DNA from: Curvibacter lanceolatus ATCC 14669
GTDB lineage: Bacteria; Pseudomonadota; Gammaproteobacteria; Burkholderiales; Burkholderiaceae_C
NCBI RefSeq assembly: GCF_000381265.1
Contig: NZ_KB906266.1
Coordinates: forward strand, 1-64,000
Direction of reading: 5' to 3'
DNA length: 64,000 nt
A program made the position numbers and the translations under genes. The notes below the pieces were generated by a model. The model was not told the origin of the DNA. It saw nothing but the letters and a program-made list of their open reading frames with translations, and searched no databases. Positions 6,429 to 21,118 of this stretch are shown one piece after another. The stretch's first letter is position 1; each line of letters opens with the position of its first letter.

Positions 6429-7490
6429 TCAGACTGGTACCGCGCTGAAGCGGTAGATGCCATCCGCGTCCAGCGTGCGCTGCAGCAGCCCCTGAAACCA
6501 CAGCGCGTGCAGGTGGGCCACGGCCTCACCCATGGCAAACGAGGTCTGATGCAGATCCAGCGGGCGTTTGAACATCACGGGCAGGATGTCCGCCCCGCAG
6601 CATGGCCGCTCTTGGCAGGCCTGCAAGACCTCGGCCAGGCGATCGCGGTGGTGCTCATGCAATTGCCGGATGCGTTGCTGCAGGCCGCGAAACGGCTTGC
6701 CGTGGGAGGGCAGCGTCAAGGTGTCCGCCGGTAGCGTGGCAAATCGATCGACCGAATCCAGAAACAGCTTCAGCGGGTTCGACTCGGGCTCGATGTCGAA
6801 CACGCTCACATTGGTCGAGATGCGCGGCAGCATCATGTCGCCCCCCAGCAGCAGGCCCAGCGTGGGGCAGTGCAGGGCAATGTGTTCCGGGGCATGGCCA
6901 TAGCCGCTGATGCACTGCCAGTCGTGGGCCCCGATGCGCACGGTGGCACCGTCCATGAGGCGGTGAAAGCGGGCCGGCATGGCCGGCACCATGCTGGGGT
7001 AGTAACGCGTGCGGCCCCGGATCTTGTCCACCGCCTCGGGGTCGCTCAGTCCGTGGGCGGCAAAAAAGCCGGCGGCGTCCGGCCCGCCGAAGCCGGTCGT
7101 GCTCTGCGACCCCAGTCGGGCCGCGTAATAGTCGGTGGCACTCATCCACAAAGGCGCGTTCCAGCGTTCACACAGCCAATGGGCCAGCCCGACATGGTCG
7201 GGGTGCATGTGGGTGACCAGCACCCGCAGGATGGGCAGTCCCTGCAGTTGTGTGGCAAAGATCTGCTCCCAAAGGGCCTTGGCGTCGTCACTGGCGATGC
7301 AGCAGTCCACCACGGTCCAGCCTTTCACACCATCGAGCTCGTCGGCCAGCAGCCACAGGTTGATGTGGTTCAGCGCGAAAGGCAGCGCCATGCGGATCCA
7401 GCGCACCCCGGGAGCCACCTCCAGCGTGTGGCCGGGCTCCGGCAGGGCCTCGCCAAAAGGGTAGTCCAGTTCCAGTTCGAGTGCGTTCAT
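6429..7490 (-). CDS. metallo-beta-lactamase-fold hydrolase, probable LiuR regulon member
   Basis: A 353-residue cytoplasmic hydrolase of the glyoxalase II/MBL superfamily. The metal-binding motif HMHPDH is at residues 94-99, with further conserved histidines in ALHCPTLGLLLGGD and PSHGKPF. The C-terminal part looks like the winged-helix tail of LACTB2-like proteins. ATG 7490 was chosen because the upstream 31 residues of the open frame are not conserved-looking. It is transcribed away from liuR, and a LiuR-type operator lies between the two genes. This suggests a job in acyl-CoA or thioester hydrolysis during isovalerate breakdown. The substrate is unknown. Confidence 0.85.
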   Translation of the reverse strand: MNALELELDYPFGEALPEPGHTLEVAPGVRWIRMALPFALNHINLWLLADELDGVKGWTVVDCCIASDDAKALWEQIFATQLQGLPILRVLVTHMHPDHVGLAHWLCERWNAPLWMSATDYYAARLGSQSTTGFGGPDAAGFFAAHGLSDPEAVDKIRGRTRYYPSMVPAMPARFHRLMDGATVRIGAHDWQCISGYGHAPEHIALHCPTLGLLLGGDMMLPRISTNVSVFDIEPESNPLKLFLDSVDRFATLPADTLTLPSHGKPFRGLQQRIRQLHEHHRDRLAEVLQACQERPCCGADILPVMFKRPLDLHQTSFAMGEAVAHLHALWFQGLLQRTLDADGIYRFSAVPV

Positions 7491-7546
7491 GGTGTGGGGC
7501 CTTCGTCCGGGCTTGTGGGGTGGTGTTGCCGCTGTGTGCGCCAGGA

Positions 7547-7575
7547 TTGACGTTGACGTAAGCGTCAGATGTAAT
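7547..7575 (+). promoter_or_regulatory. liuR promoter with embedded LiuR-type operator
   Basis: A -35 element TTGACG (7547-7552) and a -10 element TGTAAT (7570-7575) are separated by 17 bp. An imperfect palindrome (TTGACGTTGAC / GTAAGCGTCAG, 7547-7568) fills the -35 and spacer, the usual place for MerR-family binding. The same motif recurs as a perfect palindrome at 8163-8190. It probably gives autoregulation of liuR and may also control the divergent hydrolase gene. Confidence 0.7.
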
Positions 7576-7645
7576 CGGCCCATTCTAGGCAGGCGTGCAC
7601 AGGGCAGATGTCACCGCCGTGCTACCGATTCCACCCGTTTTTTCC

Positions 7646-8122
7646 ATGGCCACCACCTACACTATCAGCGACCTCGCCCACGAATTCGACCTCACCACCC
7701 GCGCCATGCGCTTTTATGAGGACATGGGGCTGCTGCAACCGCTGCGCGAGGGGCCTGGCGGGCGCACCCGCATCTACACGGCCCGCGACCGCACCCGGCT
7801 CAAGCTCACCCTGCGCGCCAAGCGATTGGGGCTGTCCCTGTCGGAGGCGCGTGAAATCATCGACATGTACGACAGCCCGCGCGACACCGGGCCGCAGCTG
7901 CGCAAATTCCTCGATGTGCTGGCCGGCCACCGCCGTCAGCTCGAAGAACAGATGGCCGATCTCCAGGCCAACCTCGAAGAGGTCAAGGTGCATGAAAAGG
8001 AGGCCCGCGCCCTGCTTGCCAAGGCCAGCAAGGTGCAGGGCGCCGAGGCGGACACCTTGCCGCCGGCCCCGCCTCAACCCGCCGCCACAGCGGCACCGAC
8101 CCGCAAGCGCCGCGCCGCCTGA
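7646..8122 (+). CDS. liuR: MerR family regulator of leucine/isovalerate catabolism
   Basis: A 158-residue DNA-binding regulator. The N-terminal MerR winged helix-turn-helix spans residues 5-75, with TISDLAHEFDLTTRAMRFYE and the wing region RIYTARDR. It is followed by a long coiled-coil dimerisation helix (about 80-135) and a short, Ala/Pro-rich tail. No metal-binding cysteine cluster is present, as expected for LiuR rather than metal sensors. ATG 7646 starts the conserved part; the longer frame adds 17 unlike residues. Position directly before liuA and the two palindromic sites support the LiuR assignment known from proteobacterial liu operons. Confidence 0.88.
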   Translation: MATTYTISDLAHEFDLTTRAMRFYEDMGLLQPLREGPGGRTRIYTARDRTRLKLTLRAKRLGLSLSEAREIIDMYDSPRDTGPQLRKFLDVLAGHRRQLEEQMADLQANLEEVKVHEKEARALLAKASKVQGAEADTLPPAPPQPAATAAPTRKRRAA

Positions 8123-8162
8123 TCCAGTGGCGCCCTTCAGGGTGTCTGAGGTGGTCTTTCAC

Positions 8163-8190
8163 TAATTGACGTTTACGTAAACGTCAATTA
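8163..8190. promoter_or_regulatory. perfect 28-bp palindrome, LiuR operator of the liu operon
   Basis: TAATTGACGTTTAC is followed immediately by its exact reverse complement, with no spacer. The site ends 12 bp before the thioesterase start. TTGACG at 8166-8171 could serve as the -35 with a weak TAAGCT -10 at 8189-8194, the same geometry as the liuR promoter. It would place LiuR control over the operon that begins at 8203. Confidence 0.88.
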
Positions 8191-8202
8191 AGCTGCCGGC
8201 CC

Positions 8203-8670
8203 ATGAACCGATCCACTTCCGACCAGGCCGCAGGTGTCCACGCGCTGGAGGCCCTGCATGCCCGCATCGAGGCCAGTCTGGCCCGCCAGGGGCTGATGCA
8301 GCACCTGGGGGCGCGCCTGCTGCGGGTCGAGCCCGGCCTGTGCGAAATCGCCTTGCCCTATTCCGAGCGGGTGACCCAGCAGCAAGGCGGCTTTCATGGC
8401 GGTGCCATGGGCGCGCTGGCCGACATCGCTGGCGGCTACGCCGGCCTGTCGGTGCTCGACGAGGGGCTGGAGGTGGTCACGGTCGAATACAAGATCAACT
8501 TCCTGGCCAGCTTCCACGGGGGTGAACTCCACGCCCTGGGCCGGGTGGTCCGCCCCGGCAAGCGGGTCATCGTGACCACGGCCGAACTCTTTCACGTGGC
8601 GCCCGACGGGCGCCGTCAATCCTGCGCGGTGATGCAGCAGACGCTGGCACCGGTCCCTCAAAAATACTGA
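8203..8670 (+). CDS. PaaI-type hotdog-fold acyl-CoA thioesterase
   Basis: A 155-residue protein of the PaaI/YdiI hotdog family. The motif [13 protein letters not shown] (about residues 62-74) is the family's active-site loop and helix, with the conserved acidic residue. VEYKINFLA is the typical following strand. It likely releases free acid and CoA from stalled acyl-CoA intermediates. It is the first gene after the LiuR operator and is 17 bp from liuA, so it is part of the liu operon. Its ATG has no obvious ribosome-binding site, and the predicted transcript start is only a few bases away. Confidence 0.87.
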
Positions 8671-8687: not shown

Positions 8688-9866
8688 ATGAACCTGCCCG
8701 GCCTCAATTTCCAACTGGGTGACGACATCGATGCCCTGCGCGACGCCGTGCGCGACTTTGCCCAGGCTGAGATCGCTCCCCGCGCGGCCGAGATCGACCG
8801 CAACGACCAGTTCCCCATGGATCTGTGGCGCAAGATGGGCGAGCTGGGGGTTCTGGGCATCACCGTGCCTGAAACCTATGGCGGCGCCAACATGGGTTAC
8901 CTGGCCCACATGGTGGCCATGGAGGAAATCTCCCGGGCCAGCGCCTCGGTTGGCTTGTCCTATGGTGCGCACAGCAACCTGTGCGTGAACCAGATCAACC
9001 GCAACGGCACCGAGGCCCAGAAGGCCAAGTACCTGCCCAAGCTGATTTCGGGTGACCACGTGGGCGCACTGGCCATGAGCGAGCCCGGCGCCGGTTCCGA
9101 CGTCATCAGCATGAAGCTCAAGGCCGAAGACAAGGGCGGCTACTACCTGCTCAATGGCAACAAGATGTGGATCACCAACGGCCCCGATGCCGACACCCTG
9201 GTGGTCTACGCCAAGAGCGAGCCCGAGCTGGGCGCCCGTGGCGTCACCGCCTTTCTGATCGAAAAGGGCATGAAGGGCTTCAGCATCGCGCAAAAGCTCG
9301 ACAAGCTCGGCATGCGCGGCAGCCACACCGGCGAGCTGGTGTTCAACAACGTCGAAGTGCCGGCCGAGAACATCCTGGGCGGCCTCAACATGGGTGCCAA
9401 GGTGCTCATGAGCGGGCTCGACTACGAGCGTGCCGTGCTCACCGGTGGCCCGTTGGGCATCATGCAGTCGGTGATGGACAACGTCATCCCCTACATCCAC
9501 GACCGCAAGCAGTTCGGTCAGAGCATCGGCGAGTTCCAGCTCATCCAGGGCAAGGTGGCCGACATGTACACCGTGCTGCAGGCCGGCCGCTCGTTTGCCT
9601 ACACCGTGGCCAAGAACCTCGACCTGCTGGGCACCGAGCACGTGCGCCAGGTGCGCAAGGACTGCGCCAGCGTCATCCTGTGGTGCGCCGAGAAGGCCAC
9701 CTGGATGGCGGGCGAGGGCGTGCAGATCTTCGGTGGCAATGGCTACATCAATGAATACCCGCTGGGCCGCCTGTGGCGCGATGCCAAGCTCTACGAGATC
9801 GGCGCCGGCACCAGCGAAATCCGTCGCATGCTGATTGGCCGCGAGCTGTTTGCGGAGACTTGCTGA
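8688..9866 (+). CDS. liuA: isovaleryl-CoA dehydrogenase
   Basis: FAD enzyme that oxidises isovaleryl-CoA to 3-methylcrotonyl-CoA, the first committed step of leucine acyl-CoA degradation. 392 residues, the usual size. [11 protein letters not shown] is the flavin/substrate signature. The catalytic glutamate is at 247 within [14 protein letters not shown], the position specific to isovaleryl-CoA dehydrogenases, rather than in the C-terminal YEGTS position; here the C-terminal sequence reads [10 protein letters not shown]. An AAGGAGA site precedes ATG 8688. Confidence 0.95.
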
Positions 9867-9906: not shown

Positions 9907-10572
9907 ATGACTTCTCCCTCCAGCCTTCAGCATCTGATCGACAACAACCGCGTTTGGGCGGCCCGAATGGAGCAGGCCCGCCCCGGCTTTTTCAGCCAGC
10001 TGGCCCAGCAGCAAAATCCCAAGTACCTCTGGATCGGCTGTTCCGACAGCCGTGTGCCGGCCAATGAGATCACGGGGCTGGATCCGGGCGAGGTGTTCGT
10101 GCACCGCAATGTGGCCAACGTGGTGGTGCACTCCGATCTGAACGCCCTGTCGGTGATCCAGTTCGCGGTCGATTACCTCAAGGTTGAGCACATCATGGTG
10201 GTGGGCCACTATGGTTGCGGTGGCGTGTTGGCCACCTTGCGTGGCATGCGTGTCGGCCTGGCCGACAACTGGCTGCGCCATGTGCACGATGTGAAGGTGC
10301 GCCATCGTCGCCGTCTGGATCACCTGAGCATGGCCGAGCAGGAAGATGTGCTGTGCGAGATGAACGTCATCGAGCAGGTCGGCAACGTCGCCCTGACCAA
10401 TGTCGTGCAAGACGCCTGGCACCGGGGCCAGAAGCTGGCCCTGCACGGCTGGTGCTATGGCCTCCAGGACGGGCTGGTCAACGACCTGCATGTCAGCATG
10501 CAAGGCCCCGACGATGTGATGCCCATGTTCCGCAACGGCCTCAAGCGCTACCCGCGCGGCGTGGCCATCTGA
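9907..10572 (+). CDS. can: beta-class carbonic anhydrase
   Basis: Interconverts CO2 and bicarbonate with an active-site zinc. 221 residues. Zinc ligands are Cys45 and Asp47 in CSDSRVP, and His101 and Cys104 in GHYGCGG; the Asp47-Arg49 dyad is present. It sits between liuA and aceK on the same strand. The biotin-dependent LiuB/LiuD carboxylase encoded further on uses bicarbonate, so co-location makes sense, although carbonic anhydrase is also a general housekeeping enzyme. Confidence 0.94.
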   Translation: MTSPSSLQHLIDNNRVWAARMEQARPGFFSQLAQQQNPKYLWIGCSDSRVPANEITGLDPGEVFVHRNVANVVVHSDLNALSVIQFAVDYLKVEHIMVVGHYGCGGVLATLRGMRVGLADNWLRHVHDVKVRHRRRLDHLSMAEQEDVLCEMNVIEQVGNVALTNVVQDAWHRGQKLALHGWCYGLQDGLVNDLHVSMQGPDDVMPMFRNGLKRYPRGVAI

Positions 10573-10597
10573 GTGTCTGAGCGGCGGGGCGTGAGCC

Positions 10598-12409
10598 ATG
10601 TTTCCATCCCGGCTTGACGCTCCCCAGGCCCATGGCATCGCCCGGGCCATGATGGACGGTTTTAACCGCCATTACCGTCTCTTCCGCACCGAGTCGGCCC
10701 GCGCCAAGCACCGCTTCGAGACCTGCGACTGGCATGGCCAGCAGCGTGCCCAGCGCGAGCGCATCGAGTTTTACGGCCTGCGCGTCAAGGAATGCGTGAT
10801 GCGCCTTGAGAAAGAGTTCAAGGCCGGGGCCCAACCCATGGACGTGTGGCAGCAGGTCAAGCTGCACTACATCGGCCTGCTGGTCGATCACCACCAGCCC
10901 GAGCTGGCCGAGACCTTCTTCAACTCGGTCACCACCAAGATCCTGCACCGCACCCATTTCCACAACGACTTCATCTTTGTGCGCCCGGCGGTCAGCACCG
11001 AATACATCGAAAACGACGAGCCCGGCGCCCAGCCCAGCTTCCGGGCCTACTACCCCTCGCGCGCCACGCTGCCCGAGGTCCTGACCCAGCTCATCGAGCA
11101 TTTCCGGCTGCAGCGTCAATTCGAAGACCTGCCCCGCGACGTGGCCAGCGTGCTGCAGGCCCTGCACCAGCGCCTGGGCGATGTGAAGCTGCGCACCAAC
11201 TTCCAGATCCAGGTGCTGTCCAGCCTGTTCTTCCGCAACAAGGGCGCGTATGTGGTGGGCAAGCTCATCAATGGCTTCAACGAACTGCCGTTTGCCCTGC
11301 CCATCCTGCACAACAGCCGGGGTCAGTTGCGCATCGACGCGGCCCTGTTCGGCGAAGACGATCTGCAGATGCTGTTCAGCTTTGCGCGTGCCTACTTCAT
11401 GGTCGACATGGAGATCCCCTCGGCCTACGTGCAGTTCCTGCGCTCGCTGATGCCGCGCAAGCCGCGCGCCGAGATCTACAACGCCCTGGGCCTGGCCAAG
11501 CAGGGCAAGACCCTGTTCTACCGCGATTTTCTGGCCCACCTGCGCCACTCCACCGACCGCTTCCGCATCGCACCCGGCATCAAGGGCATGGTCATGCTGG
11601 TGTTCGATCTGCCCTCGTTTCCCTTCGTCTTCAAGCTCATCAAAGACTACTTCCCGCCGCCCAAGGACACCACGCGCGAGCAGGTCAAGGGCAAGTACCT
11701 GCTGGTCAAGCAGCACGACCGGGTGGGGCGCATGGCCGACACGCTGGAGTACAGCGAAGTGGCCTTCCCGCGCGAGCGCTTCAGCGACGAACTGATCGCC
11801 GAAATCCAGAAGTTCGCCCCCAGCCAGCTCGAGATCAGCGACCGCGATGGCGACGGCCGCACCGAGGTCATCATCAAGCACCTCTACATCGAGCGCCGCA
11901 TGATCCCGCTCAACCTGTACCTGCAAGAGGCCTTCGACCAGGGGCTGGAGCACCCGGCGGCGCGGGCCCAGATCGAGCGCAGCGTGATCGAATACGGCAA
12001 CGCCATCAAAGACCTGGTGGCTGCCAACATCTTCCCGGGCGACATGCTGTGGAAGAACTTCGGCATCACGCGCCACGGCAAGGTCGTCTTCTACGACTAC
12101 GACGAGATCGAGTACATCACCGACTGCAACTTCCGCCGCGTGCCTGAGCCCCGCAACGAAGAGGACGAACTCTCGGGCGAGATCTGGTACAGCGTCGGCC
12201 CCCGCGATGTGTTCCCCGAAACCTTTGCGCCTTTTCTGCTGGGCCACCCCGCGGTGCGCGAGGTCTTCATGCAGCACCACGCCGACCTGTTGGAGGCGGG
12301 CTTCTGGCAGCAGCACCAGGAGCGCATCCAGGCCGGCCACGTGCACGACATCTTTCCGTACGAGCGCAGCCGGCGCTTCTCACCCTCGCAGGCCAGCCAG
12401 GCCTCATGA
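10598..12409 (+). CDS. aceK: isocitrate dehydrogenase kinase/phosphatase
   Basis: Bifunctional enzyme that phosphorylates and dephosphorylates isocitrate dehydrogenase, directing isocitrate to the glyoxylate shunt during growth on acetate or fatty acids. 603 residues, slightly longer than the E. coli protein. The N-terminal helical regulatory domain runs to about 310. The ATP-binding [12 protein letters not shown] begins near 326, and the kinase-like core has [12 protein letters not shown] and FYDYDEIEY. It lies 25 bp after can and 60 bp before a thiolase, rather than next to aceA/aceB as in enterics. Its presence here links leucine-derived acetyl-CoA to the shunt. Confidence 0.96.
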
Positions 12410-18225: not shown

Positions 18226-19269
18226 TCAGCCGGCGCCGGCCTGGCGCCGGAACTCCGCGGGCGACTGCCCCGTCCAGTCGCGAAAGGCCCGCATGAAGCT
18301 CTTCTCGTTGCGAAAGCCTGCCGCCTCGGCCACCTGCTTGATCGGCCGGCCCGTGCGCAGCAGCAGTTCGGTGGCGCGCTCGCGGCGCACCTCGTCCTTC
18401 AGGGCCTGCAAGGTGGCGCCTTCGTCCTTGAGCTGCCGGTGCAGGGTGCGCGGCGAGATGTGCAACCAATGCGCCAGGGCCTCGGCGCTTTGCGTGTCCT
18501 GCGGCTGGCGGGCCAGCAGCTGGCGCACCCGCTGCACCAGCAACCGGTCGCGCCGGTACTGCAGCACGGTCAAGGGCAGGGCGCGTTGCAACATCTGCTT
18601 GAGTGCGGTCTCGTCGCGCCGCAGCGGCATCTCCAGGTAGCGTGCGTCAAAGTGGATGCCCGCCTGCGCCGCCCCGAACACCACCGGCCCCGGAAACAAC
18701 AGCGGATAGACCTCCGCATGGGCCGGTGCCGGCAGGGGAAAGGCCGCCTGCTGCAGCGGCAGGCGCGAGTCGATCAGCCAGCAGGCCAGGCCATGGATGT
18801 TGCGCAGCACCGACACCAGGCAGAACTCGCGCAGCTCACCCAGGTCGCGGTGCTCGGTGATGGTGATGCTGCTGTGCCGGCCCTGCACATTCAGGCTCAG
18901 TGTGATGTCGTCGGCAATCAGGCCATGGTGCCGGCACCAGCGCTTCAGGGCCACGCCCAGCGACGGGGCGCTGATCGAGGCCCGGGCCAGCATGCCGTAG
19001 CTGCCCCAGGGCAGGCGCCGCCCGAACCAGCCCAGGGCCTCGTCGTCCAGCTCCTGCATGGCGGCGCCCGACAGCAACTCGAACTGCAGGGCCGTGACTT
19101 TTTTTTGCGCATCCAGAGTGTCTTCTGGCGTGATTTGTGCCGTCCTCAGGGCCTGGTCCGGCGCCAGTCCCCGTCGTTCGTAGGCCTGCAGGATGGCCTT
19201 GACAAAAGCCATCGGCGTGGCGGCTGGCTGGGGCGTTGGAAGAGGGGGGCGGCGGGGCTCGGGCGACAT
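18226..19269 (-). CDS. AraC family transcriptional regulator
   Basis: A 347-residue regulator. The N-terminal part resembles the OruR/ArgR-like arabinose-binding-type domain, with GSYGMLARASISAPSLGVAL and a LFPGPVVFGA segment. The C-terminal AraC DNA-binding domain (about 245-340) has two helix-turn-helix units, including HISPRTLHRQLKDEGA and QVAEAAGFRNEKSFMRAFR. ATG 19269 was chosen over the longer frame. It is divergent from the acyl-CoA synthetase gene with a 124-bp gap, so it probably controls that gene in response to an acyl compound. Confidence 0.89.
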   Translation of the reverse strand: MSPEPRRPPLPTPQPAATPMAFVKAILQAYERRGLAPDQALRTAQITPEDTLDAQKKVTALQFELLSGAAMQELDDEALGWFGRRLPWGSYGMLARASISAPSLGVALKRWCRHHGLIADDITLSLNVQGRHSSITITEHRDLGELREFCLVSVLRNIHGLACWLIDSRLPLQQAAFPLPAPAHAEVYPLLFPGPVVFGAAQAGIHFDARYLEMPLRRDETALKQMLQRALPLTVLQYRRDRLLVQRVRQLLARQPQDTQSAEALAHWLHISPRTLHRQLKDEGATLQALKDEVRRERATELLLRTGRPIKQVAEAAGFRNEKSFMRAFRDWTGQSPAEFRRQAGAG

Positions 19270-19393
19270 GCGGCAAGTGTGCCGGCCTGTGGCGTGATTT
19301 GCAACCTTCTTGGCCTCGGCAATTTCGGGCCGCCGACGTATCCTGCGGAGCAACGCCCCCCGAGGGCGACGCCCCGTCAGAGGAGACAAACAC

Positions 19394-21118
<1,725 letters not shown>

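Follow-up and report, generated by a model that had tools for sequence, protein, structure and literature searches.

Gene content of the liuR-liuA locus

The window analysed here, that is, the whole 64,000-nucleotide (64-kb) stretch of Curvibacter lanceolatus ATCC 14669 DNA, includes the gene of a MerR-family regulator, liuR, with an MBL-fold hydrolase gene divergent from it on one side and a thioesterase gene followed by liuA on the other (Table 1). Genes found farther along encode a methylcrotonyl/propionyl-CoA carboxylase beta-type protein, an enoyl-CoA hydratase, a biotin carboxylase with a methylcrotonyl-CoA carboxylase domain, and an HMGL-like lyase. The regulator was assigned as LiuR because it is a MerR-family DNA-binding protein, adjoins leucine-catabolic genes, and is accompanied by palindromes before branched-chain catabolic genes genome-wide; its synteny with leucine-catabolic genes is also seen in relatives. 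The protein contains no cysteine, and its best profile matches, all under the cut-off, are to ZntR/CueR types. Of the named relatives, Curvibacter gracilis is the closest, being 99% identical across the LiuR, LiuA, and hydrolase columns. The LiuR regulon of Proteobacteria is said to have been described by Kazakov et al. in 2009.

Table 1. Genes, predicted operators, and candidate promoter elements around liuR, in window coordinates
Feature	Position	Strand	Remarks
MBL-fold hydrolase, 353 aa	6429..7490	-	divergent from liuR; predicted LiuR target
LiuR operator 1 (predicted)	7547..7568	strand-neutral	common to liuR and hydrolase; 1 mismatch
Candidate -10 of liuR, TGTAAT	7570..7575	+	17 bp after TTGACG 7547-7552
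Candidate -10 of hydrolase, TAGAAT	7582..7587	-	13 bp from operator 1
liuR, MerR-family regulator, 158 aa	7646..8122	+	Pfam MerR_1 3.5e-14, MerR-DNA-bind 3.7e-14
LiuR operator 2 (predicted)	8163..8190	strand-neutral	perfect 28-bp palindrome, core 8166-8187
Candidate weak -10 of thioesterase-liuA, TAAGCT	8189..8194	+	17 bp after TTGACG 8166-8171
PaaI-type hotdog thioesterase	8203..8670	+	TIGR00369 above cut-off; Pfam 4HBT
liuA, isovaleryl-CoA dehydrogenase	8688..9866	+	PDB matches are isovaleryl-CoA dehydrogenases, best 1.2e-179

The hydrolase matches Pfam Lactamase_B (7.6e-19) and B_lactamase-like_C (6.7e-25), and HxHxDH was present in 54/54 orthologous hydrolase matches (43/54 and 26/54 in two cruder motif searches). 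The first-pass annotation had called this enzyme unstudied, which is nearly right: close, full-length homologues with deposited structures exist (PDB 6ao1, 5i0p, and 5u8o), yet these carry only generic titles, "Beta-lactamase domain protein" or "Zn-dependent hydrolase", and the listing states no function for them.

Two neighbouring regions of the window also drew attention. Downstream of liuA, at 9907-12409, come genes for a carbonic anhydrase and for the isocitrate dehydrogenase kinase/phosphatase (aceK). Of the 61 loci whose sequence extends at least 4.5 kb past liuA, 52 have the anhydrase gene within 300 bp and 43 have aceK within 1.3 kb, a synteny which suggests co-expression of the glyoxylate-shunt switch and of bicarbonate supply with leucine breakdown. 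Ahead of the liuB cluster, at 18226-21118, an AraC-family regulator gene and an AMP-binding acyl-CoA synthetase gene are arranged divergently. A weight-matrix scan of the 64-kb window returned no good LiuR box near the liuB cluster or the AraC gene, and this AraC-family regulator, rather than LiuR, may control the liuB cluster.

Two predicted operators within the window

Site 1, TTGACGTTGACGTAAGCGTCAG at 7547-7568, departs from the core TTGACGTNNACGTNNNCGTCAA (plus strand) at its last base, and site 2, TTGACGTTTACGTAAACGTCAA at 8166-8187, matches the core exactly on both strands. Matches at up to three mismatches numbered four in the window when counted strand-wise, all of them at these two sites, compared to a chance expectation of 0.02 matches per window (mean of 100 dinucleotide shuffles), and the perfect 28-bp palindrome around the second core occurs as a single copy in the 64 kb. 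A chance origin of the motifs was rejected on these grounds, and the earlier description of the region (a motif occurring twice within 650 bp, once as a perfect 28-bp palindrome, before liuR and before the thioesterase-liuA unit) was borne out, gene layout included. A weight matrix built from relatives scored site 1 at 39.7 and site 2 at 54.8, with the next best position in 64 kb at -7.6; the first two scores are not independent of the matrix, since window site 2, along with a row from Curvibacter gracilis that has the sequence of site 1, was among the rows used for training.

The motif tracks LiuR and branched-chain genes

A motif scan of the Curvibacter lanceolatus genome, which the first-pass annotation had proposed, yielded three good sites: the liuR/hydrolase and thioesterase-liuA sites described above, and one at C27:35067. 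This last site precedes, by 27 bp, an HSD10-like short-chain dehydrogenase gene; the PDB relatives of its product are 3-hydroxyacyl-CoA dehydrogenases and include type II enzymes. At up to three mismatches, the same genome gave 20 forward and 22 reverse matches versus 60 and 66 for a reversed control, so that the weak matches are best seen as noise. No match to IcmF, often a target in other genomes, was found in this genome, which is weak evidence: an empty result from this kind of search is uninformative, and the query was truncated at 820 aa.

Beyond the host, we considered 70 genomes, one per genus, in 58 of which LiuR was detected. The motif (at most one mismatch) was present in 50 of these 58 and in only 1 of the 12 genomes without LiuR (p = 3.7e-7, kinship ignored). 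Altogether, 51 of the 70 genomes carried it at this threshold; forward matches totalled 146, whereas the reversed control gave 4. Among the 75 sites listed of these 146, covering 25 genomes, 26 are next to liuR, and of the other 49, 46 precede acyl-CoA/branched-chain genes. Targets of the 49 were an HSD10-like dehydrogenase (14), IcmF (13), liuB (11), liuA (3), etfB (3), polyphosphate kinase 2 (PPK2; 2), and an acyl-CoA dehydrogenase, an acyl-CoA synthetase, and an FAA hydrolase (1 each), in a tally whose target-gene queries came from the same loci, with some names given by homology to window genes, and in which one target (L252) was counted as acyl-CoA dehydrogenase from a 100% match although it would be liuA by distance. 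A single site in L261 serves IcmF and FAA hydrolase divergently. The two PPK2 cases, from two genomes (L257 and L263, each at ~2490), have LiuR boxes directly before the kinase gene, an unexpected target.

The liuR locus itself was examined in the best 80 of 361 confirmed named loci plus the window (81 in total). When up to three mismatches were allowed, 75 of the 80 assessable loci, counting the window, had a site upstream of liuR (L083, cut at liuR and with its match falling downstream, was left out); it is missing in L032, L065, L077, L093, and L094. In the gap separating liuR from the thioesterase or liuA, a site was found in at least 58/81 loci, a lower bound since some scanned gaps were very short. 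There were exceptions: 8 of the 58 LiuR genomes lack the motif at one mismatch or fewer, and in two genomes with LiuR (G046 and G030) it was not found even at two or fewer, where it may have drifted. Conversely, G056 has the motif and no LiuR was found there. Three species (G070, G071, and G072) belonging to the genus of G012, a genome discussed below, have neither a detected LiuR nor a motif at up to two mismatches, and have apparently lost the whole regulon. The designation of the two window palindromes as LiuR-type operators is thus supported, both by co-occurrence with LiuR and by the branched-chain genes targeted.

The divergent hydrolase as a predicted member of the regulon

The hydrolase gene is divergent from liuR and within 200 bp of it in 64/81 loci, and 1.5 kb off in 3; it was not found in the other 14/81, six of which have less than 1.3 kb of upstream sequence. 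Across the 72 distinct liuR-side sites (excluding the window, which is identical to L016, one duplicate, and one truncated locus), a -10 of at least 5/6 on the hydrolase strand just past the operator was found in 61 (shuffle mean 1.1), with 0/58 for the liuA-side control. These 61 comprise 61/61 of the loci where the hydrolase adjoins liuR, versus 0/11 of the rest (8 lacking the hydrolase and 3 in which it is separated from liuR), a comparison between related loci and not between 72 independent events. The same -10 was seen in 26/44 members of the genus-spread set (shuffle mean 2.2, maximum 6; far-window control 0). No good -35 for this promoter was seen by eye in the window.

Among 54 genus-spread orthologs, 45 adjoin liuR; of these, 38 have a box scoring at least 20 (a cut-off close to the training minimum of 20.6), 6 score between 0.8 and 14.4, and one, in G046, has none. 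No box precedes the hydrolase in 7/7 genomes without detected LiuR, nor the hydrolase paralogue of the host genome (43% identity), nor the hydrolase of G030, which lies away from liuR; in G058, only ~145 bp upstream of the hydrolase was available. Three boxless hydrolases (L214, L218, and L222) were rejected as counter-evidence, since LiuR was not detected in these species and the motif was absent at up to two mismatches. Hydrolase presence was not significantly associated with LiuR presence (46/58 vs. 7/12, p = 0.15, kinship again ignored).

In a Curvibacter delicatus-type clade (L034, where the insert spans 6614-7867, L045, and L060; G012 is the corresponding case in the genus-spread set), the hydrolase and liuR are separated by an inserted MFS transporter gene. 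In 3/3 of these species, TAGAAT is found 10 bp beyond the position of the hydrolase's own box, and none on the liuR side. The box itself scores 22.3 in L045 and 21.9 in L060 and has decayed in L034 (-3.3; same sequence as L109 of G012). Loci L109, L215, and L219 score like L034, L045, and L060, and are probably the same species. The MFS gene may also be under LiuR, as judged from the box between it and the hydrolase in 2/3.

With a -10 that is present at all 61 named loci where the hydrolase adjoins liuR and that moved with the hydrolase in the three MFS-insert species (two of them with a recognisable box), the earlier prediction that the divergent hydrolase belongs to the LiuR regulon is well supported by these sequence comparisons. 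Literature searches turned up no hydrolase in LiuR regulons among the papers listed; the link may nonetheless have been published elsewhere.

Promoter geometry at the two sites

At both window sites, the operator centre lies 5 bp from the -35 box, TTGACG, and a 17-bp spacer separates this box from a -10-like hexamer, so that the two do share one -35/spacer geometry in the window, as had been stated, though both -10s are weak. The liuR candidate, TGTAAT, matches TATAAT at 5/6 positions and lacks the A at position 2, which makes its use as a -10 uncertain; the thioesterase-liuA candidate, TAAGCT, matches at 3/6, keeping T1, A2, and T6. A stricter promoter scan of the window reported neither of these plus-strand candidates. 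The window shares the TAnnCT form at 17-bp spacing with the five rows nearest to it (L016-L019 and L021), of which L018 also has a left-side -10. If TAAGCT were used, the thioesterase mRNA would be nearly leaderless, with a start within a few bases of the ATG (8189-8203).

Promoter placement varies among relatives. On the liuR side, TTGACG-17-TGTAAT (a -10 of at least 5/6 at this spacing) is kept in 27/72 sites (shuffle mean 0.12), and spacers of 15, 16, or 18-21 bp yielded none. Classified by position, 3 of the 72 sites have promoters on both sides, 41 on the left, 24 on the right, and 4 on neither, the left class being loose (4/6 over a range). On the liuA side, 10/58 sites retain TTGACG-18-TAGAAT to the right and 40/58 have a CATAAT-type -10 that overlaps the left end of the operator, with none having both and 8 neither. 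A LiuR, LiuA, and hydrolase protein tree requires 2 changes of promoter side at liuA, 1 of them forced by starred branches, and 4 at liuR, 2 of them so forced, so that few independent promoter moves are represented.

Alternative explanations

The first-pass annotation had read the geometry as that of MerR-family control, in which case LiuR would stay bound and, with inducer, distort an over-long spacer, activating both promoters. The MerR DNA-binding fold of LiuR, its below-cut-off matches to ZntR/CueR types, and the fact that the operator covers -35 and spacer at each of the window sites are all consistent with such a scheme. However, MerR-type activation involves a 19-20-bp spacer (PMC9909328), and in the heavy-metal MerR subfamilies the centre of the site and the -35 box are 7-8 bp apart (PMC5045206), against 17 bp and 5 bp here, and a -10 of at least 5/6 occurs at 19 or 20 bp in 0/72 liuR-side and 0/58 liuA-side sites. 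The absence of cysteine from LiuR, the promoters found on either side of the operator in relatives (at liuA, 10 right, 40 left, 0 both, and 8 neither), and the 2 and 4 side changes on the tree, 1 and 2 of them forced, also argue against it. The likeness to MerR-family control therefore fails; MerR-type activation geometry was rejected given the 17-bp spacer, the off-centre operator, and the varying promoter side, and we regard activation of both promoters by a permanently bound LiuR as very unlikely. Repression by occupancy is the simplest reading that fits these same features.

Two further possibilities concern which regulator and which genes the operators serve. Ownership of the palindromes by another regulator would be compatible with the motif in G056, where LiuR was not detected, and with a LiuR assignment that is predicted from sequence in Curvibacter lanceolatus, but it would leave the co-occurrence of motif and LiuR (50/58 vs. 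1/12) and the upstream site in 75/80 assessable liuR loci unaccounted for, and we hold it to be extremely improbable. Operator 1 might instead serve liuR autoregulation only, with the hydrolase a bystander in a common intergenic region, as the non-significant co-occurrence of hydrolase and LiuR (p = 0.15) and the lack of a good hydrolase box in one MFS-insert species, G046, and G030 would allow. Against this, the hydrolase-strand -10 is found exactly where the hydrolase adjoins (61/61 vs. 0/11) with the box at the predicted transcript start, 2/3 of the separated species keep both -10 and box with the hydrolase, and adjacency is kept in 44 genomes of different genera; a bystander role thus appears unlikely.

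Proposed mode of LiuR regulation

The two conserved sites, the association of the motif with LiuR, and the hydrolase-linked -10 together lead us to favour with good confidence a model in which a LiuR dimer at both palindromes would repress by promoter occupancy until released by a branched-chain product. At operator 1, bound LiuR would shut two overlapping divergent promoters at once: that of liuR, where the operator would lie over -35 and spacer, and that of the hydrolase, where it would lie just downstream of the -10, at about +8 to +29, the hydrolase transcript being predicted to start near 7575 and to read through the operator. At operator 2, LiuR would lie over the thioesterase-liuA promoter, covering its -35 and spacer. 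The putative inducer is a leucine/isovalerate breakdown product, which would release LiuR. Binding, repression by occupancy, the inducer, and the transcription starts are all inferred.

A broader, two-part reading seems to us somewhat better than an even bet: that the hydrolase would be a conserved, directly LiuR-repressed branched-chain acyl-CoA enzyme across the host's bacterial family, and that LiuR would be a MerR-fold protein free of fixed spacer geometry, acting purely by occupancy, with the operator kept while the promoter switches sides between lineages. A widely conserved, uncharacterised metallo-hydrolase would thereby gain a setting, the breakdown of leucine, isoleucine, and valine, which is easily tested by induction. 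Likewise, the 72 and 58 aligned sites constitute a natural data set on a MerR-family repressor that appears to tolerate promoters on either side of its operator.

Comparison with known systems

LiuR, a known repressor of branched-chain amino-acid breakdown, is described as a MerR-family repressor (PMC3223726), and its regulon has been tabulated for 103 genomes and 1411 sites (PMC5343134). The operators reported here are of a standard, widely conserved kind, and the role of LiuR was known before; the addition is the comparative evidence for the hydrolase. Compared with the LiuR regulon of Proteobacteria in these two sources, the present case is alike in having a regulator beside liu genes, branched-chain targets, and a site at the regulator's own gene, and differs in that a divergent MBL-fold hydrolase is predicted to use the regulator's operator and in that only three good sites are found, with no good box near the liuB cluster. 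The hydrolase is itself a full-length sequence relative of the proteins in 6ao1, 5i0p, and 5u8o. With the MerR/CueR/ZntR activators, as portrayed in PMC9909328 and PMC5045206, LiuR shares the DNA-binding fold and, in the window, an operator over -35 and spacer, whereas its 17-bp spacer, off-centre operator, lack of cysteine, and an operator placement relative to the promoter that varies among relatives set it apart.
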